Positions 5,427 through 24,943 of a stretch of DNA of 25,316 nucleotides are shown piece after piece (the stretch's first letter is position 1; each line of letters begins with the position of its first letter). A model generated the notes under the pieces. It worked only from the letters and a program-made list of their open reading frames with translations. It was not told the origin of the DNA and did no database searches. The stretch comes from a virus: the IMG/VR virus record IMGVR_UViG_3300042184_000057, positions 1 through 25,316 of that record. One strand, 5' to 3'. Made by a program: the position numbers and the translations under genes.

Positions 5427-5573
5427 GCCCCTCACCAGTTTTTCCAGCCTGTCGAGTCTCGCCGCTATAGGGTCAATCTTCGCGTCCAGGTACTTTCTGA
5501 AGTCGCGCACTACAGAGATTGCGAAGAGGCCCACCGCAGCTACGACAACGACACATACCTGCTCGTTCGTCAC
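5421..5573 (-). CDS. Small membrane protein, holin-like shape
   Basis: 50 residues. One transmembrane helix (about residues 6-20, Val/Ala-rich: VCVVVVAAVGLFAISVV) is followed by a charged amphipathic tail with heptad-like spacing (DPIAARLDRLEKLVRG). The GTG start overlaps the hicB stop as GTGA, so it is coupled to the hicAB cassette. The shape matches another coupled minus-strand protein at 24189-24419: an MT(N/D)-x-Q start, one TM segment, then a coiled coil. Such proteins can be holin- or spanin-like accessories, but no family is recognised. The overlap and the clean TM/charge pattern support a real gene. Confidence 0.65.
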   Translation of the reverse strand: MTNEQVCVVVVAAVGLFAISVVRDFRKYLDAKIDPIAARLDRLEKLVRGY

Positions 5574-5797
5574 GCGGCTACCTCAACGATGCCTGCTTCA
5601 CTGGTCGGCCGCGGAACCGGAAGCCCTGAATCCCGCAGTACCTCGAGGTGCAGTTCAATGGCTTCCCGAATCATCGCCTCGCATTCGGCGCGAGTCTCGC
5701 CGACGCTCACACATCCGGAAAGATCCGGCACATAAGCGGACCATGTGTCCCTGCCTTCTTCGTTGGGGCCATGTTCGTAGATCACGGCGTATTTCAT
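5570..5797 (-). CDS. hicB: HicB-family antitoxin
   Basis: 75 residues with the HicB partial RNase H-like fold: an N-terminal strand (MKYAVIYE), then W-S-A-Y-V-P-D-L-S-G-C, then V-S-V-G-E-T-R-A-E and a helix beginning A-x-x-M-I-R-E-A-I-E-L-H-L-E. HicB proteins bind and neutralise HicA. The chain is short and ends soon after the core, so it lacks the C-terminal HTH or ribbon-helix-helix that many HicB proteins use for autoregulation. The start overlaps the hicA stop by 4 nt and the stop overlaps a small membrane gene. On a phage this pair could act in maintenance, superinfection exclusion or abortive defence; that is inference. Confidence 0.9.
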   Translation of the reverse strand: MKYAVIYEHGPNEEGRDTWSAYVPDLSGCVSVGETRAECEAMIREAIELHLEVLRDSGLPVPRPTSEAGIVEVAA

Positions 5798-5976
5798 TGC
5801 AGACCTGCTTTCTTCAGAATGTCGCGCAGCGTTCCGGGTTTCAGATCGCCGGGATGATCGGGGACTGTGATGACAGAGGGATTGTCAGGATGCCGGAAGG
5901 ACTTGTGGCTTCCCTTCTGACGCACCAGAACCCATCCGTTCGATTCCAGCAGCCTGATAACGTCGCGTACTCTCAC
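5794..5976 (-). CDS. hicA: HicA-family mRNA interferase toxin
   Basis: 60 residues from the GTG at 5976, which overlaps the upstream zinc-ribbon stop (GTGA) and follows AAAGGTGAA. The dsRBD-like HicA pattern is complete: RDVIRLLESNGW, then GSHKSFRHP with the catalytic His, then ITVPDH and LKPGTLRDILKKAGL. HicA cleaves mRNA (and tmRNA) when free of HicB. A longer in-frame start near 6015 would give an unusual N-terminal extension and is less likely. All key residues are present, so the toxin looks active. Confidence 0.93.
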   Translation of the reverse strand: MRVRDVIRLLESNGWVLVRQKGSHKSFRHPDNPSVITVPDHPGDLKPGTLRDILKKAGLQ

Positions 5977-6224
5977 TTCACCTTTCCCGCCGGCTTCCGC
6001 GCCGGCACATCCCACCTCGGCTGCTTACAGGCCGGGCAGGCTTTCGGCCGGCCAGCGATCCGCGACATCCACTCGTGACCGCAGCGCTTGCAGCGCTTCG
6101 ATTTACTCGCAGTGACCAGCACATCCCACCTCGGCTGTTTGCAGTTCGGACAGGTTTTCGGCCGGCCAGCGATCCGCGACATCCACGCGTATCCGCAGCG
6201 CTTGCACGTCTTCGATCTCCCCAT
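5973..6224 (-). CDS. Duplicated zinc-ribbon protein upstream of hicAB
   Basis: 83 residues made of two nearly identical zinc ribbons, each CKRCG-x-x-W-M-S-R-I-A-G-R-P-K-x-C-P-x-CKQPRWDV, repeated with a 38-residue (114-nt) period. Each ribbon has two CxxC pairs that should bind one zinc. The DNA copies are also very similar, so the duplication is recent. It is first in a four-gene minus-strand cassette with overlapping stops and starts through hicA, hicB and a membrane protein. Its start lies 8 nt below a TATGAT hexamer with no Shine-Dalgarno, suggesting a leaderless transcript. A nucleic-acid or ribosome contact role is plausible. Whether it belongs to the toxin-antitoxin system is unknown. 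Confidence 0.8.
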   Translation of the reverse strand: MGRSKTCKRCGYAWMSRIAGRPKTCPNCKQPRWDVLVTASKSKRCKRCGHEWMSRIAGRPKACPACKQPRWDVPARKPAGKVK

Positions 6225-6296
6225 AATGAATAATCATACATCCACGCGCCGCTGTACCCTTCTTTTCTACGCGTCATAATGTTATGATTACATATT
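6225..6296. promoter_or_regulatory. Divergent promoter pair, likely leaderless
   Basis: A TATGAT hexamer faces each way: 6283-6288 on plus and 6233-6238 on minus. Each lies exactly 8 nt before its ATG (6297 plus, 6224 minus), and the two share TATGATTA followed six bases later by TATG. Neither gene has a Shine-Dalgarno. Inverted repeats TCATAAT / ATTATGA also lie at 6274-6280 and 6294-6300. The region is far more AT-rich than its surroundings. No clear -35 boxes are visible, so an activator may be needed. Confidence 0.55.
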
Positions 6297-6443
6297 ATGA
6301 CTGATCAGACAATCTGTGTGAAGTGCCGCAAGCGCATAGCCCTGCCCAGAGGCACGCACTGCTTCATCTGCCGCAAGAACGGCGCCGCGGCGATGTACCG
6401 CAAGTGGAAGCAGGAAGCGATCCGGAAGGGGAAGGGCAAGTGA
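6297..6443 (+). CDS. Small zinc-knuckle protein
   Basis: 48 residues. Two CxxC pairs (CVKC at residues 7-10 and CFIC at 22-25) form a compact zinc ribbon, followed by a very basic helix rich in Arg and Lys (YRKWKQEAIRKGKGK). It looks like a small nucleic-acid-binding protein. The ATG lies 8 nt below a TATGAT box, and the stop overlaps the next GTG start. It is the first gene of a rightward six-gene block. No family recognised. Confidence 0.6.
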   Translation: MTDQTICVKCRKRIALPRGTHCFICRKNGAAAMYRKWKQEAIRKGKGK

Positions 6444-6694
6444 GCAGCCTTGATGTCAGTTTGTGCCGCGAGATCCTGCGACTCACCATCTCCGACGTGC
6501 GAGCGTTCAATCCGGCCGTCAGGCTGAAGGACGCATGGGTCTATAAACTGAGCGAGGACCACTGGGAGTTTCACTACGGAGACTACTACTGGCATGGGTC
6601 CGCGGACAACGCCTATGAGGCGCGGGCAGAGGGCTGGTCTGCATGGCTCGGTAGTCAGGGCGCCCCTGGGTACACACGGGACGGCACCGAATGA
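6440..6694 (+). CDS. Conserved hypothetical phage protein
   Basis: 84 residues from the GTG at 6440, which overlaps the upstream stop. The chain is rich in aromatic residues (DHWEFHYGDYYWHGSADNAY), with a following helix Y-E-A-R-A-E-G-W-S-A-W-L. I recall similar small proteins in other phages without a known function. It is probably a single alpha/beta domain and is cytoplasmic (no TM or signal). The stop overlaps the next ATG. It belongs to the early or accessory block led by the zinc-knuckle gene. Confidence 0.7.
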   Translation: MSSLDVSLCREILRLTISDVRAFNPAVRLKDAWVYKLSEDHWEFHYGDYYWHGSADNAYEARAEGWSAWLGSQGAPGYTRDGTE

Positions 6695-6945
6695 CACGCG
6701 GCGAAGAAGACGCCCGCGTCCGCGAGCTCAAGCGGATCCTCGGCTCCTTCAGCGAGCCGCTGGAATTCCGGAAGAACTGGTCTCGCGTCGGTGTGTATTA
6801 CGGCAAGGCTGACCGGCAGCGGCCGGCGTTCCGCGCATACGAGTCGCGGCGAGACTCCTACTCCAGAACCAAACGCGAGTACGATGCGCTCCGCGCCGAG
6901 TTGATTGCCCTGCAGGCCCGGGCTCGCAGGAGACACACCGCATGA
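6691..6945 (+). CDS. Small basic helical protein
   Basis: 84 residues, strongly charged, with two helical stretches (about residues 5-20 and 48-80) rich in Arg, Glu and Lys. The C-terminal half looks like a short coiled coil (TKREYDALRAELIALQARARR). The start overlaps the previous stop as ATGA and the stop overlaps the next start the same way, supporting an operon gene. No family recognised. It may be a DNA- or protein-binding partner of the nuclease that follows. Confidence 0.6.
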   Translation: MTRGEEDARVRELKRILGSFSEPLEFRKNWSRVGVYYGKADRQRPAFRAYESRRDSYSRTKREYDALRAELIALQARARRRHTA

Positions 6946-7340
6946 AGCGGACTCCACTGAAGCGCTCCAGCAAGCCGCTGAAGCGCACACCACTGAAGAG
7001 GGTCACACCCCTGCGGCCGCGCAAGCCCGGGAAGAAGTCCGAGCCGGGATCGAGCGTGTACCTGCGGTGGATCCGCACGCTCCCGTGTCTTGTATGCGGA
7101 GGAGCTCAGGGACCGTCGGAAGCAGCGCACACCAAGACACACGGGTCTGCCGGCGCGGCCGCGAAGAGCTCGTATCTAAGCTGCATACCGCTCTGCACGC
7201 ACGACCATGTGCTCGCGGGCGACAGCTACCACCGGATCAGCCCCGAGTCACGCTGGGCCGCGCATCACGAGCTCGACCTTGGGTTGATTGTGAGGGCTCT
7301 GAATGCCGGGTGGGAACTGCGAAGGAGGAAAGCCGCATGA
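6942..7340 (+). CDS. HNH-like phage nuclease
   Basis: 132 residues. The N-terminus is a highly basic repeat (KRTPLKR twice, then more Lys/Arg up to about residue 35). The core has a zinc pair C-L-V-C, then S-E-A-A-H-T-K-T-H-G, then I-P-L-C-T-H-D-H, spaced as in the beta-beta-alpha metal fold of DUF968/Ref-like phage nucleases. These act in recombination or DNA processing. The block Y-L-R-W-I-R-T-L-P-C-L-V-C is typical of the group. ATGA overlaps occur at both ends. It probably cuts DNA during replication or recombination; exact substrate unknown. Confidence 0.75.
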   Translation: MKRTPLKRSSKPLKRTPLKRVTPLRPRKPGKKSEPGSSVYLRWIRTLPCLVCGGAQGPSEAAHTKTHGSAGAAAKSSYLSCIPLCTHDHVLAGDSYHRISPESRWAAHHELDLGLIVRALNAGWELRRRKAA

Positions 7341-10042: not shown

Positions 10043-11095
10043 TTGTCAGGTCACCTGGCCCGCGCCCCGACAACAATCAAACCTATGATGCACACAGCCG
10101 AGACAGGAAACAAGCCTCTCCCTGTCCTGCAGTACTGTCACACCATTATGCACGCCCTCGTGCATGTCTTCACTCAATCTTCGCAGAGCAAGCTGTTTTC
10201 TGGCGTCATCGCCCGGTTCAGGGCTGAAGAGATGCCGGACAGGCACAGCACCCGGACAGCATACGAATCCATGTTGAGCAAGTGGATCGAGCCCCGGTGG
10301 GGGAACGTACCGACGGCCGACATCAGGACTGCGGACGTCGAGCTCTGGCTCCACGAGATGAACTGCGCGGCCAAAACACGGGGACACAGAAGAGCCCTGA
10401 TGCACGCCCTGCTCAACGCCGCGATCCGGTGGGAACTGGTCGACCGCAATCCGGTCACGCTCGCCCGGGTGAGGGGAGGAACGAGACGGCGGCGGCGGCC
10501 GCTCCTGATCAGTCTGGCCGAACTGCGGAGTGTTCTCGGGCACCTGGAGACCCCGTTCCGCGAGATGGTCCTGCTCGCCGCACTGATGGGATTGCGGGCG
10601 TCGGAGGTTGTGGCGCTCAAATGGAGAGATTTCGATTTCTGCAGCAAAACACTGCAAATCGAACGCGGCTCCGTTTCGGGCCGCATCGCCGACACAAAGA
10701 CCGAGAGCTCCGAGGATCTGCTGCCGCTGCATGAGGGGCTGATCGAGGAATTGTTCCGCTACCGGGCATCCGCTCCGCAGTCGGCAGAGGACTGGGTCTT
10801 TCCGAGCAACGTCACCGGTCGCCCTTATCACCAGGACTCCATCCGCAAGCGGCGCCTGATCCCGGCCGGTGAAGCTGCAGGACTGACGCGACCTTTGGGG
10901 TGGCACACCTTCCGTCATTCCTACCGCCGCTGGCTGGACGAAGCCGGCACACCGGTGGGAATCATCAAGGAGCTCATGCGACACGCTCATATCGCCACGA
11001 CAATGGACGTGTACGGAGTCGGCACATTGACCGCTGCAAAACGGCAGGCACACAGTGCGGTGGCTCAAACAATCCTGAAGCAGTCAGCCGCATAA
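10043..11095 (+). CDS. int: Phage integrase, tyrosine recombinase
   Basis: 350 residues. A SAM-like core-binding domain (about 55-130, with RHSTRTAYESMLSKWIEPRWG) is followed by a basic patch GGTRRRRRP and the catalytic domain. Catalytic residues are visible: Arg in GLRASEV, Lys in DTKTESSED, H-T-F-R-H, H in LMRHAHI, and nucleophile Tyr in MDVYG. The enzyme cuts and joins attP and attB. The fMet tRNA fragment ends 10 nt before this start, the usual int/attP arrangement. The start is uncertain: ATGs at 10043, 10085 and 10148 are in frame and none has a clear Shine-Dalgarno. The conserved domain begins after residue 50. Confidence 0.92.
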   Translation: MSGHLARAPTTIKPMMHTAETGNKPLPVLQYCHTIMHALVHVFTQSSQSKLFSGVIARFRAEEMPDRHSTRTAYESMLSKWIEPRWGNVPTADIRTADVELWLHEMNCAAKTRGHRRALMHALLNAAIRWELVDRNPVTLARVRGGTRRRRRPLLISLAELRSVLGHLETPFREMVLLAALMGLRASEVVALKWRDFDFCSKTLQIERGSVSGRIADTKTESSEDLLPLHEGLIEELFRYRASAPQSAEDWVFPSNVTGRPYHQDSIRKRRLIPAGEAAGLTRPLGWHTFRHSYRRWLDEAGTPVGIIKELMRHAHIATTMDVYGVGTLTAAKRQAHSAVAQTILKQSAA

Positions 11096-11266: not shown

Positions 11267-11596
11267 ATGCATAAAGAAACTCGGCGCATCAGCGCCCGCA
11301 CCCCCTTGCTCGACCACGCGGGTGAGACACTCGGCTGGTACGACGCCGTCTCTGTCAGGGAACTGATGAGCCGTCCCGGCGTCTACGTGATCGGGACACG
11401 CACTCGCGTGACTGGCCTCCGCTTTGCCGGTCCCGATCCCGCAGGCTTACTGCTTTCCGGCTCGCGCCACAGAAGTTCAACAGGCGAGCCGCACCGGAAC
11501 GAAAACTACTACAACCCTCAGGGATGTTGGCATATAGACTTCATTCCACACCACTGGCGCGCGTTTTTCTCAATGGCTTATGCCCAAGACTCCTGA
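11267..11596 (+). CDS. Hypothetical protein between two recombinases
   Basis: 109 residues, no recognised family. The first half has a possible small alpha/beta fold (TLGWYDAVSVRELMSRPGVY, then strands V-I-G-T-R-T-R-V-T-G-L-R-F). The second half is rich in His, Tyr and Asn. The 3' end overlaps the next recombinase start by 17 nt, suggesting coupling. No Shine-Dalgarno is obvious. The preceding 11096-11266 shows nothing clear. Codon use is compatible with coding, but confidence is moderate. Confidence 0.5.
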   Translation: MHKETRRISARTPLLDHAGETLGWYDAVSVRELMSRPGVYVIGTRTRVTGLRFAGPDPAGLLLSGSRHRSSTGEPHRNENYYNPQGCWHIDFIPHHWRAFFSMAYAQDS

Positions 11597-12464
11597 CTGG
11601 GACGACGTGATGGAGCTCTGGAAGTACAACATGCCCCCGAGCACTCTGTACGTCTACCAGCCGGTGATCAAAGGGCTCCGCAACTTCGTCGGGCAGGTAT
11701 CGATCGCCGAGGTCACCGAAACGCACGTCCAGCAATACCTCGAGTCCACATCGGCGAACCAGCTTCCCTCCACCCGCAAGCGCAAATTATCGACACTGAA
11801 GTCTCTCTTCAAGTACGCCTTCAGGGCCGGCGCGATCCCGCGGGACGTGGCGTGTCTGCTGAACTCGCCGAAGGTTCCGGACGACTTGGCGCAACGAATC
11901 CTGACTCGCGATCTGGTACTGAAACTGATCAATGCGGCCGACAACCAGCGGGACAGGGTGCTGATGACCGTGCTCTACTCGACCGGCGTCAGAGCGTCCG
12001 AGGCCGCGGGGCTCAGGTGGATCGACTGCCGCGGCCGCTCCAAAACGAACGGCCAGATCTCGGTTCTCGGCAAGGGCCAGAAGCGCCGCACCATCCTGCT
12101 CACCGACGACGTCTGGCACGAGTTGCAGGCTCTGAAGCCGGCGGGCGCCGCCCCGGAAGATTTCATCTTCCTGTCGGAGTCCGGCTGGAAGAAGCCGCTG
12201 ACCAGAATCCGCATTGCGAACATCGTCCGCGAGGCCGCCAAGCGGGCCGGGCTCGAGGAGCACGTCAGCCCGCACTGGATGCGGCACGCCCACGCGAGCC
12301 ACGCGATGGAAAACGGCGCACCTCTCCCTCTCATCTCAGCCACACTGGGTCATACCAGCCTCGCCACCACCTCCCGCTACCTGCACATCTCCCCGGAGCA
12401 GAGCTCCTCCAGTTATGTCAGCGTGTCAGCCAAGCCACACCGTGTGGCTCGCCGGCGACACTGA
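11580..12464 (+). CDS. Second tyrosine recombinase, XerC/D-like
   Basis: 294 residues. A SAM-like N-terminal domain (about 1-95, with a LSTLKSLFKYAFRAG helix) precedes a full catalytic domain: Arg in STGVRASEAAGLRW, Lys in LGKGQKRR, H-W-M-R-H, H in LGHTSLATT, and Tyr in SRYLHI. All catalytic positions are present. It is closer in style to Xer enzymes than to the integrase at 10043. Possible roles are dimer resolution, a second integration system, or a DNA inversion switch. It ends 110 nt before the small terminase gene. Two tyrosine recombinases side by side in one phage are unusual. Confidence 0.9.
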   Translation: MPKTPDWDDVMELWKYNMPPSTLYVYQPVIKGLRNFVGQVSIAEVTETHVQQYLESTSANQLPSTRKRKLSTLKSLFKYAFRAGAIPRDVACLLNSPKVPDDLAQRILTRDLVLKLINAADNQRDRVLMTVLYSTGVRASEAAGLRWIDCRGRSKTNGQISVLGKGQKRRTILLTDDVWHELQALKPAGAAPEDFIFLSESGWKKPLTRIRIANIVREAAKRAGLEEHVSPHWMRHAHASHAMENGAPLPLISATLGHTSLATTSRYLHISPEQSSSSYVSVSAKPHRVARRRH

Positions 12465-12574
12465 CGAACAAAACCCAGGTTTTGCTGCGCTTCTAAGCCT
12501 TCTCGAATCAGCAACTTGGCAAGAAAAAAGCGAACGGAGCGGCAATACAGGGCTCTTAAAAAACCAGCAGAGTT

Positions 12575-13123
12575 GTGAAACGCACGCTAACGAACAGTAA
12601 TCGGAAGAAGTTCCTCGAGGTCTACGCCAAAATCGGCAACCTGACACTGGCGGCAAAGGCCGCGAAGATCAACCGCAACACTCATTACCTCTGGCTTCAG
12701 GATCCTGAGTACCGCCACGCCTTCGAGCAGGCCCACGAGGAAGCCGTAGACCTTCTGGTCGAGGAAGCCCGCAGAAGGGCTCACGAGGGCTGGGACGAGC
12801 CCATAGTCTACCAGGGCAGTTTCTGCTATCCCACGCCAAAGAAGGGCGGCAAGCCCAGCAACAAGCCCCTGAGCATTCGCAAGTTCGACTCCACGCTCCT
12901 GATGTTCCTCATCAAGGGCGCCAGACCGGAGATCTACAGAGACACCTGGAGGGGCGAGATCAAGCACTCAGGCGCCATCTCAGCCGGCCCCGACCTCTCC
13001 AACCTGACCGATGCCCAACTCGAGCAACTCAACCTCATGCTCCAGCTTGCCAATGGCTCCTCCAGCCCGGTTGAGGGCGTTGTTGTCGGCGGTACCGGCG
13101 GAACTGGAGAGGAGGAAGCGTAA
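12575..13123 (+). CDS. terS: Terminase small subunit
   Basis: 182 residues from a GTG at 12575. The N-terminal 60 residues are a helix-turn-helix of the phBC6A51/small-terminase type (FLEVYAKIGNLTLAAKAAKI, then NTHYLWLQDPEYRHAF). A long helical middle (EEAVDLLVEEARRRA) and FDSTLLMFLIKGARPEIYRD follow. It recognises the packaging site and brings the genome to the large subunit. Its 3' end overlaps the large subunit start by about 70 nt in another frame. The Gly/Val-rich C-terminus looks disordered. No clear Shine-Dalgarno lies before the GTG. Confidence 0.85.
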   Translation: MKRTLTNSNRKKFLEVYAKIGNLTLAAKAAKINRNTHYLWLQDPEYRHAFEQAHEEAVDLLVEEARRRAHEGWDEPIVYQGSFCYPTPKKGGKPSNKPLSIRKFDSTLLMFLIKGARPEIYRDTWRGEIKHSGAISAGPDLSNLTDAQLEQLNLMLQLANGSSSPVEGVVVGGTGGTGEEEA

Positions 13124-13799
13124 CCGGATCGCGACCTACTTCCCCGACACCGGCCCGCTCAGGCGAGCACTGTACCCGAAGCACCTCGAGTTTTTCGCGG
13201 CCGGCGGAAAGCACAAACCGCTGCCGAGTTGTCCGGACGGCTGCGACGGCTCGCCACACCGTGAGCGGTGCTTCATGGCCGGCAACAGGATCGGGAAGAC
13301 TTCCGCAGGAGTTTACGAGACCGTGTTGCACCTGACCGGCAACTACCCGCACTGGTGGACAGGGAAGCGCTTCGATAAGCCAATCAAGGCATGGGCAGCA
13401 TCGGACACGAACAAGACAGTGCGCGGCGTCTTGCAGGAGAAGCTGTACGGCACATTGAGCGAGCCGGGGACTGGCCTCATTCCGGGCGACAGTATCGTTC
13501 ATCGCACGACGAAGCAGGGCATAGCGGAAGCCATCGACACAATCTACGTGAAGCACGTCAGCGGTGGCACATCATCAGTGGTGCTGAAGAGTTATCAGGA
13601 AGGCCGGGAGAGTTTTCAGGCTGATACGGTGTCCTGGATACTTTTCGACGAGGAACCAAGTCTGGAGATCTTTACTGAGGGACTCGTTCGTACTATGACC
13701 TGTGACGGGTCTGTTGCGCTGGTTTTTACGCCCCTTCAGGGGCTCAGTGAAGTTGTGTTAAGTTTCCTCCCGAACGGACTGCCAGGATCGACTTCATGA
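13053..13799 (+). CDS. terL: Terminase large subunit, ATPase half
   Basis: 248 residues from the ATG at 13053; an earlier in-frame ATG at 13011 is less likely. Walker A is G-N-R-I-G-K-T (13281-13301) and Walker B is W-I-L-F-D-E-E (near 13634). The coupling motif region ends FTPLQGLSEVVLSFLP. The chain then stops after a few residues, exactly at the loop that joins ATPase and nuclease domains in full-length terminases. The nuclease half is a separate gene at 16689. Third codon positions become visibly richer in A/T from about 13600 to the end, as if this end came from another source. Both halves look intact, so they may work as a two-chain motor. Confidence 0.92.
   Translation: MAPPARLRALLSAVPAELERRKRNRIATYFPDTGPLRRALYPKHLEFFAAGGKHKPLPSCPDGCDGSPHRERCFMAGNRIGKTSAGVYETVLHLTGNYPHWWTGKRFDKPIKAWAASDTNKTVRGVLQEKLYGTLSEPGTGLIPGDSIVHRTTKQGIAEAIDTIYVKHVSGGTSSVVLKSYQEGRESFQADTVSWILFDEEPSLEIFTEGLVRTMTCDGSVALVFTPLQGLSEVVLSFLPNGLPGSTS
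13725..13787 (+). repeat. Terminase-tail duplicate, copy 1 (in use)
   Basis: 21 codons at the end of the ATPase half, F-T-P-L-Q-G-L-S-E-V-V-L-S-F-L-P and on to G-L-P-G. Copy 2 at 14786-14848 encodes the same peptide with two changes, yet only about 41 of 63 bases match. 15 codons differ synonymously, and one serine is AGT here and TCA there. Confidence 0.9.
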
Positions 13800-13813
13800 G
13801 ATAATAGATTCAG

Positions 13814-13849
13814 CAGGGCAACCAGTGCTTGTAACACTGACTGCCCCTG
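13814..13849 (+). other. Nested hairpin between terminase and HNH
   Basis: CAGGGCA / TGCCCCTG (13814-13820 with 13842-13849, one bulge) encloses CAGTG/CACTG (13823-13827 with 13835-13839) with a 7-nt loop. No T-run follows. It lies inside the inserted cassette between the recoded terminase end and the HNH gene, and may be a weak terminator or RNA element. Confidence 0.5.
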
Positions 13850-13880
13850 ACCGAAACCACAACTGAATAGGAGTTGCGGA

Positions 13881-14807
13881 GTGGCTGAATCCACCATACC
13901 TGATCAGAAGCAATGCACAAAATGTGGCGAGCTTAAGCACTGCGCTGAGTTCTATCGAATCGGCGGAGGCTACCTGGCCGGCAGGTGCAAGGCATGTACC
14001 CGCACACACGAGAGAGAGAGGCGTTTCTTACGGACGAACAGAAGCCAGGAGGCGCAGAGACGCGCGTCTGCCCAGACGGAGCTTGACTTCCATGACGTAC
14101 CGCCCGTTGTAACGAAGACGTGCCGCCTGTGCCGGAAAGTCAAACCCAGAAGCGACTTCGAGCAATATACAGTCCGTACTCGATGGGGCAACGAAACGGT
14201 CAGATACACGTTCACGTGTCTTATCTGTGTCGCCAGCGGTCCTAAAAACAGGCGCATCCCAAAAACGGAGAAACGATGCATCTTCTGTAAAGAAGTGAAG
14301 CCGGTTGCAGAGTTTCATTCGTTCAATTACACGACGCGCACAGGCAGGAACAGCAGGCGGCTGAATTCCGGCTGCAAGAACTGCTGTGCGGTCTATGCGC
14401 GACAGAGGCGCACTGACAATAAAGAGCAGATTGCCGAGAAGAATCGCGAGTGGCACGAACGCAACAAACTGCAGATTGTCGAGAGAAATAAAGAGTACTA
14501 CGCCGCTACCAAAGGGCGGATGCGCGACTATCGGTTCAAGCATCAGCTCAAGGCATTTGGCATGACGCCTGCGCATCATAGTCAAATGCTCGCAGAGCAA
14601 AACGGCGGCTGTGCCATCTGCGGCGGAAAGCCGGACGGGACCAGGCGAACTAAACTGTGTGTGGATCACTGCCATGACACCGGCACGGTTCGCTCTCTGT
14701 TGTGCCACAACTGCAATTGCGCACTCGGCTTACTGGGCGAGGATCCGATCCGCATTCAGACGATGCTCGATTACGTCCTGAAGCATTCACTCCGTTGCAG
14801 GGGTTGA
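13881..14807 (+). CDS. Endonuclease VII-type HNH, likely homing
   Basis: 308 residues from a GTG with AGGAG 7 nt upstream. Three zinc-binding units line the N-terminal half: CTKCG...CKAC (near 12-50), CRLC...CLIC (near 78-115) and CIFC...CKNC (near 130-170). A charged helix follows (about 180-215). The C-terminus is a T4 recombination endonuclease VII-type domain: GCAICGG, then L-C-V-D-H-C-H-D-T-G-T-V-R-S-L-L-C-H-N-C-N and a final helix. The gene lies between two copies of the same terminase segment and its last codons overlap copy 2. This is the expected signature of a homing endonuclease aimed at the terminase gene. Zinc units probably give site recognition. Confidence 0.88.
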   Translation: MAESTIPDQKQCTKCGELKHCAEFYRIGGGYLAGRCKACTRTHERERRFLRTNRSQEAQRRASAQTELDFHDVPPVVTKTCRLCRKVKPRSDFEQYTVRTRWGNETVRYTFTCLICVASGPKNRRIPKTEKRCIFCKEVKPVAEFHSFNYTTRTGRNSRRLNSGCKNCCAVYARQRRTDNKEQIAEKNREWHERNKLQIVERNKEYYAATKGRMRDYRFKHQLKAFGMTPAHHSQMLAEQNGGCAICGGKPDGTRRTKLCVDHCHDTGTVRSLLCHNCNCALGLLGEDPIRIQTMLDYVLKHSLRCRG

Positions 14808-14854
14808 GCTCAGTCGTCTTGTCATTCCTGCCTGACGGTCTGCCGGGCGGGTGA
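14786..14854 (+). pseudogene. Terminase-tail duplicate, copy 2 (stranded)
   Basis: The frame at 14786 encodes F-T-P-L-Q-G-L-S-S-V-V-L-S-F-L-P-D-G-L-P-G-G and a stop at 14852-14854. It has no start of its own and overlaps the HNH 3' end in another frame. Joining the ATPase gene at 13724 directly to 14786 would restore a continuous ATPase half. So this looks like the original gene end displaced by a 1,061-bp insertion. A CTGCCGG/CCGGCAG hairpin (14840-14846 with 14858-14864) overlaps its stop. Confidence 0.8.
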
Positions 14855-14880
14855 TATCCGGCAGTGGCATGATATGAGCA

Positions 14881-15225
14881 GTGAACGACAAGTACATCCT
14901 CGGAGGGGACGACGGCAGGACGCCGACACCGGTTGACGACTTGCTCGAGTGGGCTCGATGGTTTGAGAGCAACGACCGGCGAGTAGCGGAAGACCATGTC
15001 GGGCCATACCGTGTGTCCACGGTCTTTCTGGGGCTCAACCACAACTTTGCCGGTCTGTTCGGCGGCGGGGATCCCACACCCATTGTCTTCGAGACGATGG
15101 TGTTTGCCGCGGCCGGGCGCCACGATGTTCATGACTGCGACACAGAACGGTGTTCGACGTGGGACGAAGCAGTAGCCCAGCATGAGCAAATAGTCACCCG
15201 GCTGAAGCAGGAGCTCTCGGGATGA
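14881..15225 (+). CDS. Conserved hypothetical phage protein
   Basis: 114 residues from GTG. The pattern includes LLEWARWFE, then R-R-V-A, then VSTVFLGLNHNF, then PIVFETMVF and a helix W-D-E-A-V-A-Q-H. This is a small conserved phage protein I have seen in other genomes beside other small genes, with no known function. Soluble, alpha/beta. It opens a tightly packed run that leads to the terminase nuclease half, and its stop overlaps the next ATG (ATGATG). Confidence 0.75.
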   Translation: MNDKYILGGDDGRTPTPVDDLLEWARWFESNDRRVAEDHVGPYRVSTVFLGLNHNFAGLFGGGDPTPIVFETMVFAAAGRHDVHDCDTERCSTWDEAVAQHEQIVTRLKQELSG

Positions 15226-15479
15226 TGGATCCTGACTCAGTGAACCGGCTGAAGGAGAAGCTGCTTCCGCCCGGGACCACACTGGCTGAAGTCCCTCCGG
15301 ACTGGCAGGGACTGACTCCACGGCAAGCGAGGGAACTGCAATGGCAGGAATGGCTGACCGAGGCCGCACAACTGAGACAAGGCCAACCCCTTCCGGAGTT
15401 ACCGCTGGCGACAGCGAGGGATCGATATGGATGGAGGAGCTTACCGAACGGCTCGTCGTATCACCCGGAGAGGAAGTAA
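15222..15479 (+). CDS. Small hypothetical protein
   Basis: 85 residues, helical, with a central LTPRQARELQWQEWL helix and a proline-rich loop. The start overlaps the previous stop by 4 nt. The C-terminal third overlaps the next gene start in another frame. No family, TM or metal motif is visible. Real by position in the coupled run. Confidence 0.55.
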   Translation: MMDPDSVNRLKEKLLPPGTTLAEVPPDWQGLTPRQARELQWQEWLTEAAQLRQGQPLPELPLATARDRYGWRSLPNGSSYHPERK

Positions 15480-15682
15480 CAGTCGAGGGATGGTACTCAT
15501 CGGGCGCCCCGATGGTCGGGATCTTTGTCGAAGGCGAGATGCTGGTGGAGTGTACGGCAGACATTGCCCGCTTCTTTGCCTACCGGCTGGTAAGCCTGCC
15601 CGCGCCGCCTGCGCCGGGACGGGAGAAGACGGACACCCTCGCACACGAGATACTGGCCGTCTGTGATGCACTGAGTCAATGA
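15431..15682 (+). CDS. Small hypothetical beta-rich protein
   Basis: 83 residues from the ATG at 15431 (GAGGGA about 10 nt upstream); an in-frame ATG at 15341 would add an out-of-character basic N-terminus inside the previous gene. Strands V-S-P-G-E-E-V-T-V-E-G-W-Y, then A-P-M-V-G-I-F-V and M-L-V-E-C-T-A-D-I-A suggest a small beta fold, followed by a C-terminal helix. The stop overlaps the next start as ATGA. Function unknown. Confidence 0.55.
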   Translation: MEELTERLVVSPGEEVTVEGWYSSGAPMVGIFVEGEMLVECTADIARFFAYRLVSLPAPPAPGREKTDTLAHEILAVCDALSQ

Positions 15683-16215
15683 GCAGGGACGAGATCATAA
15701 AACGTCTCGCGGATTATGCGAGAGAGGACGTAGGAAGTCAGCGGGCAAGGCTGGTAGCAGAATGGAGAAGGCAATACCCGGCCGCGGCAAACGAAGCGTC
15801 ATCGGCGAGTAAACCGCTCGCCCTGATCATGAAGCGGGAGCCGGGGGAGCACGGGAGTTTACCCGATGAAGAGTACTGTAACGACACGTATTACGTGACA
15901 CTTCGCAGGCATGACACCGATCCTGTATTCGGCACGCGAGCCGGCATGATCCAGTTGGGCATCGCATCACTGGACGGCATGGCACGGCACGACTGGCGCG
16001 ACTTCCAGGCGATCAAGAATCAGCTTGCGGGTCCGGAAACGGAAGCGTTTGAGTTATACCCGGCAGAATCGAGGCTTCTCGATCCGTCAAACTATTACAC
16101 GCTCTGGTGTTTTCCGGGTCTGCGCCGTCTGAAGATTGGTCAGGAGAAGCGCGAGGTACTGGATGCAGATCATGCGCTCGCTCCACAGCGTGCCTTGCCA
16201 TCTGCGATCCGCTGA
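15679..16215 (+). CDS. DUF7694-like hypothetical protein
   Basis: 178 residues. Residues about 95-150 carry a recognisable phage block: G-M-A-R-H-D-W-R-D-F-Q-A-I-K-N-Q-L-A-G, then E-A-F-E-L-Y-P-A-E-S-R-L-L-D-P-S-N-Y-Y-T-L-W. This matches my memory of the DUF7694 domain of unknown function. The N-terminal 60 residues are helical and the C-terminus is basic. The start overlaps the previous stop. Members commonly sit among small phage genes; no reaction is known. Confidence 0.7.
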   Translation: MSRDEIIKRLADYAREDVGSQRARLVAEWRRQYPAAANEASSASKPLALIMKREPGEHGSLPDEEYCNDTYYVTLRRHDTDPVFGTRAGMIQLGIASLDGMARHDWRDFQAIKNQLAGPETEAFELYPAESRLLDPSNYYTLWCFPGLRRLKIGQEKREVLDADHALAPQRALPSAIR

Positions 16216-16219
16216 CCCA

Positions 16220-16684
16220 ATGACCGACACTGAGAACATCCTCGCCGCGGCCGAGAACAGCTACAGCAACGTCCAGAAGGCAGAGTGGACCGGAGAAGTC
16301 ACCAACTACTTCTGCGTACTGCTGGACTGCGGACACCGGGTGCATTGCAGCAGAGACCATCTCCGCGGCCGGATGATGTGCATGACGTGCCTCACTCACA
16401 AGCTTGTGAAGAGAGACGAGCAACACGCGCACATCTCAACTCCGGAGACGCACTCGCCTGACTGGAGTCCACCTCCCGGCGTGCCAGACGAAGCAGACCG
16501 GGCAGAGGGTATGAGGAACATGACGCAGGAAGAGCGTCTGGCATCGATGACCGCACGCAACGCCGCGCACTGTGGTTGTAAGTGGGAGCCGGATCCGTCC
16601 TGCATAGCGGGTACTGTCTTCCGGCCGTGTACCTATCACCGGGAACAGGCACTGATGGCGCAGAACCGTCACAACTTCGATTGA
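16220..16684 (+). CDS. Cys-rich hypothetical protein before terminase half
   Basis: 154 residues from the ATG at 16220, 4 nt after the previous stop; a longer in-frame start at 16136 overlaps that gene and is less likely. Cysteines are paired or near-paired (C-V-L-L-D-C-G-H, then CMTC, later C-G-C), with several His residues, suggesting one or two zinc sites. A proline-rich linker lies near the middle. It ends 4 nt before the terminase nuclease half, so the two are probably co-translated. Family not recognised. Confidence 0.6.
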   Translation: MTDTENILAAAENSYSNVQKAEWTGEVTNYFCVLLDCGHRVHCSRDHLRGRMMCMTCLTHKLVKRDEQHAHISTPETHSPDWSPPPGVPDEADRAEGMRNMTQEERLASMTARNAAHCGCKWEPDPSCIAGTVFRPCTYHREQALMAQNRHNFD

Positions 16685-16688
16685 GGCA

Positions 16689-17426
16689 ATGAGCAAGTTC
16701 CTTGTGATGGCGGACTGGGACTCAGCCCCACACCTGTCAGAGCAAGCGAAGCAAGACCTCCTGCAGAGCATACCCGCCTACCAGCGGGACGCCAGAAGCA
16801 AGGGCATACCGGTCCTCGGCGCCGGCGCGATCTACCCGGTGCAGGAGTCGGACATCACGGTCAGCGACTTCGAGATACCGCGGCACTGGCCGAGGTGCTA
16901 CGGTCTCGACGTCGGCTGGAACCGGACCGCGGCCGTCTGGCTCGCACTGAACAGGGACGCCGACGCTCTCTACGCATACGCCGAGCACTACCGGGGAGAG
17001 GCCGAGCCGGTCATCCACGCTGAAGCCATTAAGGCCCGGGGCGCATGGATCAAGGGAGCGATTGACCCGTCGGCCCGCGGCCGCGGACAGACCGACGGGC
17101 GCCGTCTCATCGAGATGTACCGAGACCTCGGGCTCGACCTCACCGACGCCGACAACTCCGTCGAGACGGGCATCTACGAGATGCTGACCCGGATGGCGTC
17201 GGGCACCTTCAAGGTATTCAAGTCCCTGCAGAACTGGCTGGGTGAGTTCAGGCTGTACCGTCGCGATGAACGGGGACGCATCGTAAAAGAACGGGACCAT
17301 CTGCAGGACGCAACACGCTACGGACACTCAAAACTTCACACGATCCTGAGCACCCAGCCGAAGCCGCCGAAGCAGCAGACAGTGCTGGTATCACCGGGTC
17401 AGCGCTCCACCGGGTGGATGGGATGA
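16689..17426 (+). CDS. terL: Terminase large subunit, nuclease half
   Basis: 245 residues starting MSKFLVMADWD. This matches the segment that follows the ATPase-nuclease junction in full-length terminases (A-P-H-L-S, then YQRDARSKGIP and G-A-I-Y-P). RNase H-like nuclease motifs are visible: first acid in Y-G-L-D-V-G-W-N, then G-A-I-D-P-S, and a final acid in LQDATRYG. It cuts the concatemer to end packaging. The ATPase half lies 2.9 kb upstream on the same strand. The start is adjacent to an upstream stop with only a weak GAGG. In frame, only 11 codons extend upstream before a stop, so this really is a separate gene unless RNA splicing occurs. It ends 36 nt inside an opposing zinc-ribbon gene. 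Confidence 0.92.
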   Translation: MSKFLVMADWDSAPHLSEQAKQDLLQSIPAYQRDARSKGIPVLGAGAIYPVQESDITVSDFEIPRHWPRCYGLDVGWNRTAAVWLALNRDADALYAYAEHYRGEAEPVIHAEAIKARGAWIKGAIDPSARGRGQTDGRRLIEMYRDLGLDLTDADNSVETGIYEMLTRMASGTFKVFKSLQNWLGEFRLYRRDERGRIVKERDHLQDATRYGHSKLHTILSTQPKPPKQQTVLVSPGQRSTGWMG

Positions 17427-17615
17427 CTCCTCCTCCGGTCTGGAGACAAACGCCAGCCGCTTCCAGTCCGCTCCGCACTTGGGACAGTACAGAGTCTTCC
17501 AGTGAGCGACAACCACGCTGACCGGAGCCCGCTGAAGCATCTGCTGGTCCCACTCGTGACGGCACGCCTGACACACCATCGGGGAATGCGTGAAGGTCAT
17601 CTCGGTCATACCCAC
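17391..17615 (-). CDS. Zinc-ribbon protein
   Basis: 74 residues, with CQACRHEW at residues 15-22 and CPKCGADW around 44-51, separated by a stretch with P-V-S-V-V-V-A-H-W. This two-knuckle ribbon resembles small phage proteins I have seen elsewhere, function unknown. The last 36 nt overlap the terminase end tail to tail. A likely start is the first or second Met (residue 1 or 5). It is the second gene of a short minus-strand cassette and overlaps the first by 10 nt. Confidence 0.75.
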   Translation of the reverse strand: MGMTEMTFTHSPMVCQACRHEWDQQMLQRAPVSVVVAHWKTLYCPKCGADWKRLAFVSRPEEESSHPPGGALTR

Positions 17616-24188: not shown

Positions 24189-24419
24189 TTATTTATGATG
24201 TTCCAGTACGTGGATCTTCAGCAGGGTTTCCATGCGGTCGCCCAATGCTTTGATGTCGCCTCGCAGGGTGTCTCTGAGGTCGTCCATGCGGGCATCGAGG
24301 TGTTTGTTGGTGTCGTCGAGGCGTTTCGAGAGATCCGCCACGCGGCCGTTCGAGTAGATAACGGCCCCGGTGGAAATGGCAATCGAGATTGCCAGTGTCA
24401 TGATTTGTGCGTCGGTCAA
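24189..24419 (-). CDS. Membrane-anchored coiled coil, TTG start
   Basis: 76 residues. One TM helix (about 7-22, I-S-I-A-I-S-T-G-A-V-I) and a long coiled coil with Asp/Leu/Arg heptads (LSKRLDDTNKHLDARMDDLR, then G-D-R-M-E-T-L-L-K-I). The TTG start overlaps the stop of the upstream HNH gene as TTGA. Shape and coupling match the protein at 5421-5573. The layout fits a holin accessory or an anchored scaffold; no family recognised. Confidence 0.65.
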   Translation of the reverse strand: MTDAQIMTLAISIAISTGAVIYSNGRVADLSKRLDDTNKHLDARMDDLRDTLRGDIKALGDRMETLLKIHVLEHHK

Positions 24420-24943
24420 GTAAGCTTTCCTGCGGCGGATTGCTTCGGTTGGCGTCTGCGGCGGTTTCTTATCTGTTCTGGCTGGGTAGCCCAGCGGCAG
24501 TTTGCAGGTTCATAGTTTCCGTCATTGTCTTTGCGGTCTATCGAATGCTTCGGCGAAGGCCTCGGCCCCATATCGGCAAGGAATGTGGTGAACGAGTTCC
24601 ATCGAGGGCACACCGTAATACCGCGGCCCCCATAGCCGGCGTAGTTCTTGTGGGTGGGAGTGAAGCACCGCCGGCGCATATCGGACCATACGGAGTATTC
24701 CGGAATGATACGCGAAAGCCTCTGCCCCCGGGCTTGCGATGCATCGAGACCGATCATCGCGAATATGGCATATCTCATGCCGTTCCGCCCCGGATGGTTT
24801 GTTCTCCGCAGAGCGATACATGCTCGACAGCGCCGCTTTCCATGAACCCGCTGGGTATTTTCCGGCGTGAACTCATGCCCACGGATGCAGTGGCTCTTCG
24901 CTGCATTGATCGCCGTGGGTCCGAATGTGTGGAAAGTCCGCAT
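24416..24943 (-). CDS. HNH endonuclease, AP2/ICEA-like type
   Basis: 175 residues. The N-terminus has a zinc unit (C-I-R-G-H-E-F-T-P-E-N-T, then CRACIALRR). The nuclease part carries YSVWSDMRRRCF, then N-Y-A-G-Y-G-G-R-G-I-T-V-C-P-R-W, then M-G-P-R-P-S-P-K-H-S-I-D-R-K-D-N-D-G-N-Y and A-N-C-R-W-A-T. That is a common mobile HNH pattern in phages; the AP2-like end probably contacts DNA. The neighbouring structural genes are on plus, so it is probably a mobile insertion. It is 46 nt from the divergent gene at 24990. Confidence 0.88.
   Translation of the reverse strand: MRTFHTFGPTAINAAKSHCIRGHEFTPENTQRVHGKRRCRACIALRRTNHPGRNGMRYAIFAMIGLDASQARGQRLSRIIPEYSVWSDMRRRCFTPTHKNYAGYGGRGITVCPRWNSFTTFLADMGPRPSPKHSIDRKDNDGNYEPANCRWATQPEQIRNRRRRQPKQSAAGKLT

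Follow-up and report, generated by a model that had tools for sequence, protein, structure and literature searches.

A phage terminase gene with an apparently imported end and its native end stranded behind an EndoVII-type HNH gene

A 25,316-bp virus record, referred to here as the window, carries the end of its terminase ATPase gene twice, once on each side of an EndoVII-type HNH endonuclease gene. The explanation that we consider probable is that a free-standing homing gene of this type entered the junction of a split terminase together with about 190 bp of donor terminase sequence; its left side would have been joined through homologous exchange and its right side through end-joining. The sequence itself shows a recipient resembling the closest relative (L002), a leader-HNH unit that has moved between lineages, a change of lineage within the ATPase gene, and the last 22 native codons of that gene immediately downstream of the HNH gene. 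A preliminary description of this DNA had read it as a nuclease cassette that brought in a foreign end, now finishing the ATPase gene, and left the native end stranded behind it; that much is retained, but not the accompanying idea that the imported end is a recoded, target-evading tail.

Two ends of the ATPase gene

The two copies start at 13725 and 14786, 1,061 bp apart, and over 21 codons they share 19 of 21 residues but only 41 of 63 bases; by codon table, 15 codons differ synonymously, four are identical, and two encode different residues. The serine codon AGT at 13761 corresponds to TCA at 14822. All of these figures (spacing, residues, bases, and synonymous differences) agree with the preliminary description. 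When the downstream 2 kb was shuffled 50 times and searched with the copy peptide, the best chance match was 8 of 21 residues: the resemblance of the two copies far exceeds chance.

Copy 2 ends in a stop codon of its own (14852-14854). Upstream, its frame stays open only as far back as 14675, and the sole candidate starts there are GTG (14702) and TTG (14717). The HNH reading frame enters copy 2 for six codons (SLRCRG) before its stop at 14805-14807; the conserved end of the HNH protein is YVLKH, which aligns with the end of Hpy99I, and what follows is an out-of-frame reading of copy 2. Because the HNH frame stops inside copy 2, past its own conserved end, the right edge of the cassette can be placed directly before the TTC ACT CCG of copy 2. 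Joining 13724 to 14786, which had been expected to restore a continuous gene, restores the ATPase half only: the terminase nuclease half remains a separate gene (16689-17426), set off by another 1.8 kb of small ORFs.

Which of the two ends belongs to this phage? L002 has a single, copy-2-like ATPase end (FTPLQGLSAVVLSFLPDGLPAGE) that overlaps the nuclease start as TAATG, with no insert, and the HNH gene is absent from the 27-kb L002/L161 record. Among 118 distinct family ends, compared over a short sequence without bootstrap, copy 2 is nearest to L002 (43/54 nt, 17/18 aa), and copy 1 to L012/L269 (46/54 nt, 18/18 aa), followed by L247/L248. Identity between the window and L002 is 55% for the small terminase (TerS), 73% for the ATPase, 78% for the terminase nuclease, and 63% for the portal; TerS is 31-42% identical to those of other close relatives. 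Since copy 2 and both flanking sides are L002-like, copy 2 can be taken as the native end and copy 1 as the newcomer; judged by these affinities, copy 2 is the stranded native ATPase end.

No other relative surveyed has a second ATPase-end copy between its two terminase genes. At loci with inserts of at least 60 bp, the best second match elsewhere was 7 of 18 residues, vs. 16 of 18 in the window; three long islands at the ATPase/nuclease junction yielded no second end copy, and fused or overlapping loci have no space for one. Both copies were likewise found in no relative lacking the HNH gene. A duplication arising within the window, of tandem or target-site type, is rejected, since the copies differ too much from each other and each has its own lineage.

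The foreign part of the ATPase gene, put at 21 codons in the preliminary description, appears from trees and identity pattern to be considerably longer, about 60 codons. At about 13620, identity to L002 drops from 95% to 35-55%, and beyond this point the window resembles L244-L248 (QADTV.FIL.DEEPSL.I..E.LVRTM). With the gene divided near 13600, a breakpoint selected after the identity profile was viewed, the tree of the body (13120-13600) has L161 (= L002) as its nearest row and rejects grouping with L244-L248 (p-AU 0.006), while in the tree of the end (13600-13788) the window joins L244-L248 (support 99/93) and grouping with L161/L002 is borderline rejected (p-AU 0.049). Copy 1 therefore differs in lineage from the body of the gene that it completes. 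Third-position GC falls from 0.78 in the body to 0.52 in the imported end. These patterns indicate a chimeric ATPase gene whose final 190 bp or so come from another lineage, the exchanged tract taking in the Walker B region and FTPLQG motif, with only the last 22 codons left as native remainder, in the form of copy 2. In single-breakpoint tests, the strongest L002/L244-pattern break was at 13290, and the window/L002/L003 test gave 13668; as the best break position varies with the parent pair, the left boundary is given only as about 13600. The gene may thus be mosaic and switch lineage more than once. Its start codon is uncertain, the frame being open from 13011.

Table 1. Features of the terminase region (positions in the window)
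Feature	Position	Strand	Remarks
Small terminase gene (TerS), native background	12575..13123	+	PHROG 4044 terminase small subunit, E 6e-28
Split terminase ATPase gene, body (Walker A)	13083..13598	+	Terminase_6N E 8e-11; 77% identical to L002
Imported ATPase 3' end and stop (Walker B region WILFDEEP, FTPLQG motif)	13599..13799	+	Left boundary approximate
Copy 1 of duplicated terminase end (FTPLQGLSEVVLSFLPNGLPG)	13725..13787	+	Nearest of 118 family tails L012/L269
HNH gene leader	13797..13880	+	Two predicted hairpins; second includes AGGAG ribosome-binding site
EndoVII-type HNH endonuclease gene	13881..14807	+	Endonuclease_7 E 5e-19; zinc-finger-like CxxC array and C-terminal catalytic domain
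Copy 2, stranded native ATPase end (FTPLQGLSSVVLSFLPDGLPGG, then stop)	14786..14854	+	Out-of-frame overlap with last HNH codons; nearest tail L002
Second island, small ORFs 14881-15225, 15222-15479, 15341-15682, 15679-16215, 16136-16684	14855..16688	+	
Terminase nuclease gene (ATPase-domain end and RNase H-like nuclease)	16689..17426	+	Terminase_6C E 1e-10; 78% identical to L002

A mobile gene at a recurrent terminase split

The ATPase gene covers positions 1-142 of Terminase_6N, and the nuclease gene, which matches the solved large-terminase nuclease 4dkw, weakly covers 162-213. In a non-redundant set of 129 terminase loci (the window and its IMG/VR relatives), 52 are fused, 37 are split with the halves adjacent or overlapping (≤20 bp), one has a gap of 21-59 bp, and 39 have an insert of at least 60 bp: 77 of the 129 are thus split, with a common linker as the site and inserts ranging from 0 to 6.7 kb. 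Fused and split states alternate on the locus tree, with 15 changes by parsimony, at least four of them forced by well-supported branches. Since insert-free relatives are already split, the HNH cassette did not create the split; many relatives have the junction open into which it came. The expectation that the insertion had broken a working gene is not borne out. Nine diverse split relatives (L019, L022, L027, L040, L055, L059, L069, L070, and L074) have in common an NTG-CC-TGA context at the ATPase gene end, which can be read as a start/stop overlap of 8 bases or as a potential +1 frameshift site that would join the terminase halves.

The HNH protein, of 308 residues, retains its CxxC, DHxH, and CxxCN residues in alignment with Hpy99I and EndoVII (the Hpy99I match is at 244-302). 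It is 80% identical to that of L003, with dN 0.125, dS 0.52, and dN/dS about 0.24, and the gene is intact, with its catalytic motif kept, and under purifying selection. Between the same two phages, synonymous sites of the ATPase and nuclease terminase genes are saturated (pS 0.78-0.83). Identity is about 85% over a stretch that begins within the last few codons of the ATPase gene, takes in the leader, and covers most of the HNH gene, vs. 55-70% in the flanking terminase genes. From the contrast between a dS of 0.52 and saturated flanks, it follows that the HNH gene has moved between phages. The leader is about 80% identical in L003 despite being non-coding, and two hairpins are predicted in both phages, with paired changes between them (fold z -3.0 in the window, -2.1 in L003).

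The HNH gene is optional at a fixed junction, being found in the window and L003 and absent from L002; in L003, its end falls on the nuclease-gene start codon, and there is no second ATPase end. A leader-motif scan and a protein scan of viral contigs found further copies of the cassette only in three L003-type contigs, and a scan of bacterial genomes for relatives of the cassette found only one distant nuclease. An intact homing-type catalytic domain, optional presence, and independent transfer are features of a free-standing (intronless) homing gene, and the HNH gene has all three; that it homes is suggested by its nuclease family, its position, and its patchy presence.

Two other kinds of mobile element were considered for this junction. 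Between the terminase genes, an Rfam search (E up to 1, 12400-17500) gave no intron of group I or group II and no further RNA family, apart from two sub-threshold hits taken as chance, and the overlapping stop and start codons at the terminase junction of L002 and other relatives speak against a group I intron with a nested nuclease. Split inteins are rejected because the gene ends carry no extra domain: the ATPase ends 17 residues past FTPLQGL, and the nuclease begins MSKFLVMADW.

EndoVII-type or HNH genes are also present at the ATPase/nuclease junction of L003, L012, L210, L226, L248, and L264. Those of L210 and L226 (both EndoVII-type) lie in the ATPase/nuclease gap, and the EndoVII-type genes of L248 and L264 end on the nuclease-gene start. 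The ATPase and nuclease genes are parted by about 5 kb of cargo in both L285 (from L248) and L286 (from L264), and the EndoVII-type gene immediately precedes the nuclease gene; the L285 cargo includes an IS110-like transposase-related ORF. The junction of L012 has an inverted 341-residue ORF (6045-7070, minus strand) with a zinc-finger-like array as in the window nuclease and an HNH-like motif at its end, apparently another nuclease domain, with no Pfam hit. In the second island of the window, the lone recognized domain is DUF7694, in the ORF at 15679-16215, and none of the island ORFs has a homologue at the equivalent position in relatives.

A more speculative possibility, which we offer tentatively, is that in this large P22-like phage group the linker is a recurrent fission point, kept open by EndoVII/HNH invasions that also re-edit the Walker B/FTPLQG end. 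If true, homing genes would be driving the formation of two-subunit packaging motors. A terminase that is recurrently split at one linker, drawing in nucleases and cargo, is a case in which the shaping of an essential machine by homing genes can be put to the test.

A candidate homing event and its alternatives

The proposed event would begin with the nuclease cutting an L002-like recipient at or just upstream of the first codon of copy 2, and repair would then fill the break with a donor ATPase end and the HNH gene. On the left, strand invasion or homologous exchange in conserved ATPase sequence near 13600 would co-convert about 60 codons; on the right, the joint would be free of homology, made straight onto the unresected native end, which would become copy 2. 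The imported end would carry the ATPase reading on to a proper stop, and should also abolish the cleavage site, an effect that co-conversion of the flanks has in intronless homing at large. A donor with both an L244-like ATPase end and this HNH gene was not found among the relatives surveyed, and the arrangement with both ends is seen in one genome only.

The survival of copy 2 limits where the target can be: as it persists uncut, the target is not wholly within 14786-14854. Either it would include some of the lost codons upstream, or it would straddle the stop of the ATPase gene and the start of the nuclease gene, now parted by the second island.

Another possibility is ordinary illegitimate recombination between two related phages in the packaging module, joining a genome that ended in ATPase and HNH genes to another whose sequence set in midway through an L002-like ATPase end, with the HNH gene as a passenger and its cutting uninvolved. 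The junction is indeed a general insertion site, where the 39 inserts of at least 60 bp are mostly without recognized nucleases; the window itself has a second island at the same place, and its ATPase gene may be mosaic elsewhere too. Both flanks are L002-like, however, and hence two exchanges are required, one of them exactly at the end of the HNH gene. Nucleases of this kind recur at the junction, and the HNH unit is far less diverged from that of L003 than are its surroundings; we consider this explanation unlikely.

It is still more doubtful that the cassette carries a dedicated terminase end, synonymously recoded and selected to function while evading the nuclease target, as the preliminary description had it. 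The 15 synonymous differences in 21 codons invite this reading, and replacement of the flank by donor sequence is held to confer resistance in intronless homing (PMC12724721). The divergence is ordinary, however: between the two copies, 34 of 54 bases agree where 16 of 18 residues are identical, and 12% of 121 family pairs with equal protein identity are as diverged or more. The homologous cassette of L003 adjoins L003's own end, with raised identity beginning only at the last few ATPase codons, so that the cassette does not always bring the tail with it. The foreign tract extends about 125 bp upstream of the supposedly recoded 63 bp, and a target site wholly inside the 69 bp of copy 2, which persists unaltered in the same genome, would be self-cut. 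As a co-converted flank accounts for the imported end, special recoding is not needed; the foreign end is best seen as such a flank, not evolved for evasion, and its replacement would protect the phage all the same.

The HNH nuclease might instead be a working part of DNA packaging, like the terminase-adjacent HNH protein of HK97, with the duplication incidental. It does lie inside the packaging module, and terminase-adjacent HNH proteins can assist packaging (PMC10448857, PMC12724721), but the gene is missing from the nearest relative, L002, and from the L244 (5.4-kb fragment) and L245 records; an EndoVII-type fold with a zinc-finger array, patchy distribution, and differing nucleases at the same place also make such a role highly improbable. 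A contig assembled as a chimera of two phage strains would be conceivable for a virus record with an arrangement known from a single example, but is highly improbable: no 13-mer near 13600, 14786, 14855, or 16689 is repeated in the contig, the copies are just 65% identical, and the HNH frame is coherent, as are the two gene ends.

Known parallels and neighboring genes

The closest parallels to the homing event proposed here are mobile ORFs (mORFs) of fungal mitochondria, an analogy already drawn, aptly, in the preliminary description. In Glomus mitochondria, endonuclease ORFs have an inserted foreign C-terminus on one side and the native C-terminus on the other, the native end being unexpressed in atp6; mobile ORFs with foreign C-termini are known from Glomus atp6, atp9, cox2, and nad3 and from Allomyces macrogynus atp6 (PMC3630166). 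As in the window, an endonuclease sits at the end of an essential gene, with a foreign end upstream and the native end stranded about 1 kb downstream, and DNA and protein identities of the two ends are similar: 63.5% and 91% in Glomus atp6, 65% and 90% in the window (PMC3630166). The window shares with mORFs a foreign end in frame upstream of the nuclease and a native end, nearest L002, downstream. The differences are that mORFs are in mitochondrial genes and encode LAGLIDADG or GIY-YIG enzymes, whereas the window has a phage terminase, already split as a target, and an EndoVII-type nuclease; and that its foreign end is about 60 codons long, vs. just 22 native codons left.

Free-standing phage homing enzymes of the EndoVII type are represented by F-CphI of cyanophage S-PM2 (PMC6083498). 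Like the window HNH gene, it is a free-standing phage gene beside a conserved gene and has the EndoVII catalytic motif, but the target of F-CphI is psbA, with an intron protecting its own genome (PMC6083498); in the window, where no intron RNA family was found, protection would come from the replaced end. Homing genes of T4 are restrained by hairpins over the ribosome-binding site, which the leader hairpin in the window resembles, and T4-type cases such as MobE in Aeh1 nrdA and seg43 in the split polymerase gene of phage 25 likewise place a homing gene between or inside essential phage genes, with the split T4-type proteins staying usable (PMC2988022). For the phage 25 polymerase, the nuclease is thought to have invaded a gene that was already split, as in the window; unlike the window, the T4-type systems are not described as having a duplicated foreign gene end in the portion of that source drawn on here (PMC2988022). 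In ICP1, a homing gene adjacent to terL puts a nuclease at a recombination boundary near terminase, as here, but its terL is joined by RNA splicing, whereas relatives of the window keep two genes and the boundary is within coding sequence (PMC10448857).

Within the literature searched, coverage of which was partial, no phage case with both gene ends preserved was found. The window would be a phage counterpart of the gene-end replacement of fungal mitochondria, and with both ends kept, a single homing event becomes readable: where the donor tract starts, where the right joint lies, and which end is native.

Other mobile or selfish genes may be present elsewhere in the window. An ORF at 24416-24943 (minus strand) has an HNH-like motif (SIDRKDNDGNYEPANCRWAT) with no Pfam hit, and is possibly a second homing-type gene. 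A HicA/HicB toxin-antitoxin pair (Pfam) is at 5570-6015 (minus strand). Tandem tyrosine recombinases (10043-11095 and 11580-12464; Pfam) lie just upstream of the terminase genes, which suggests that the phage is temperate.
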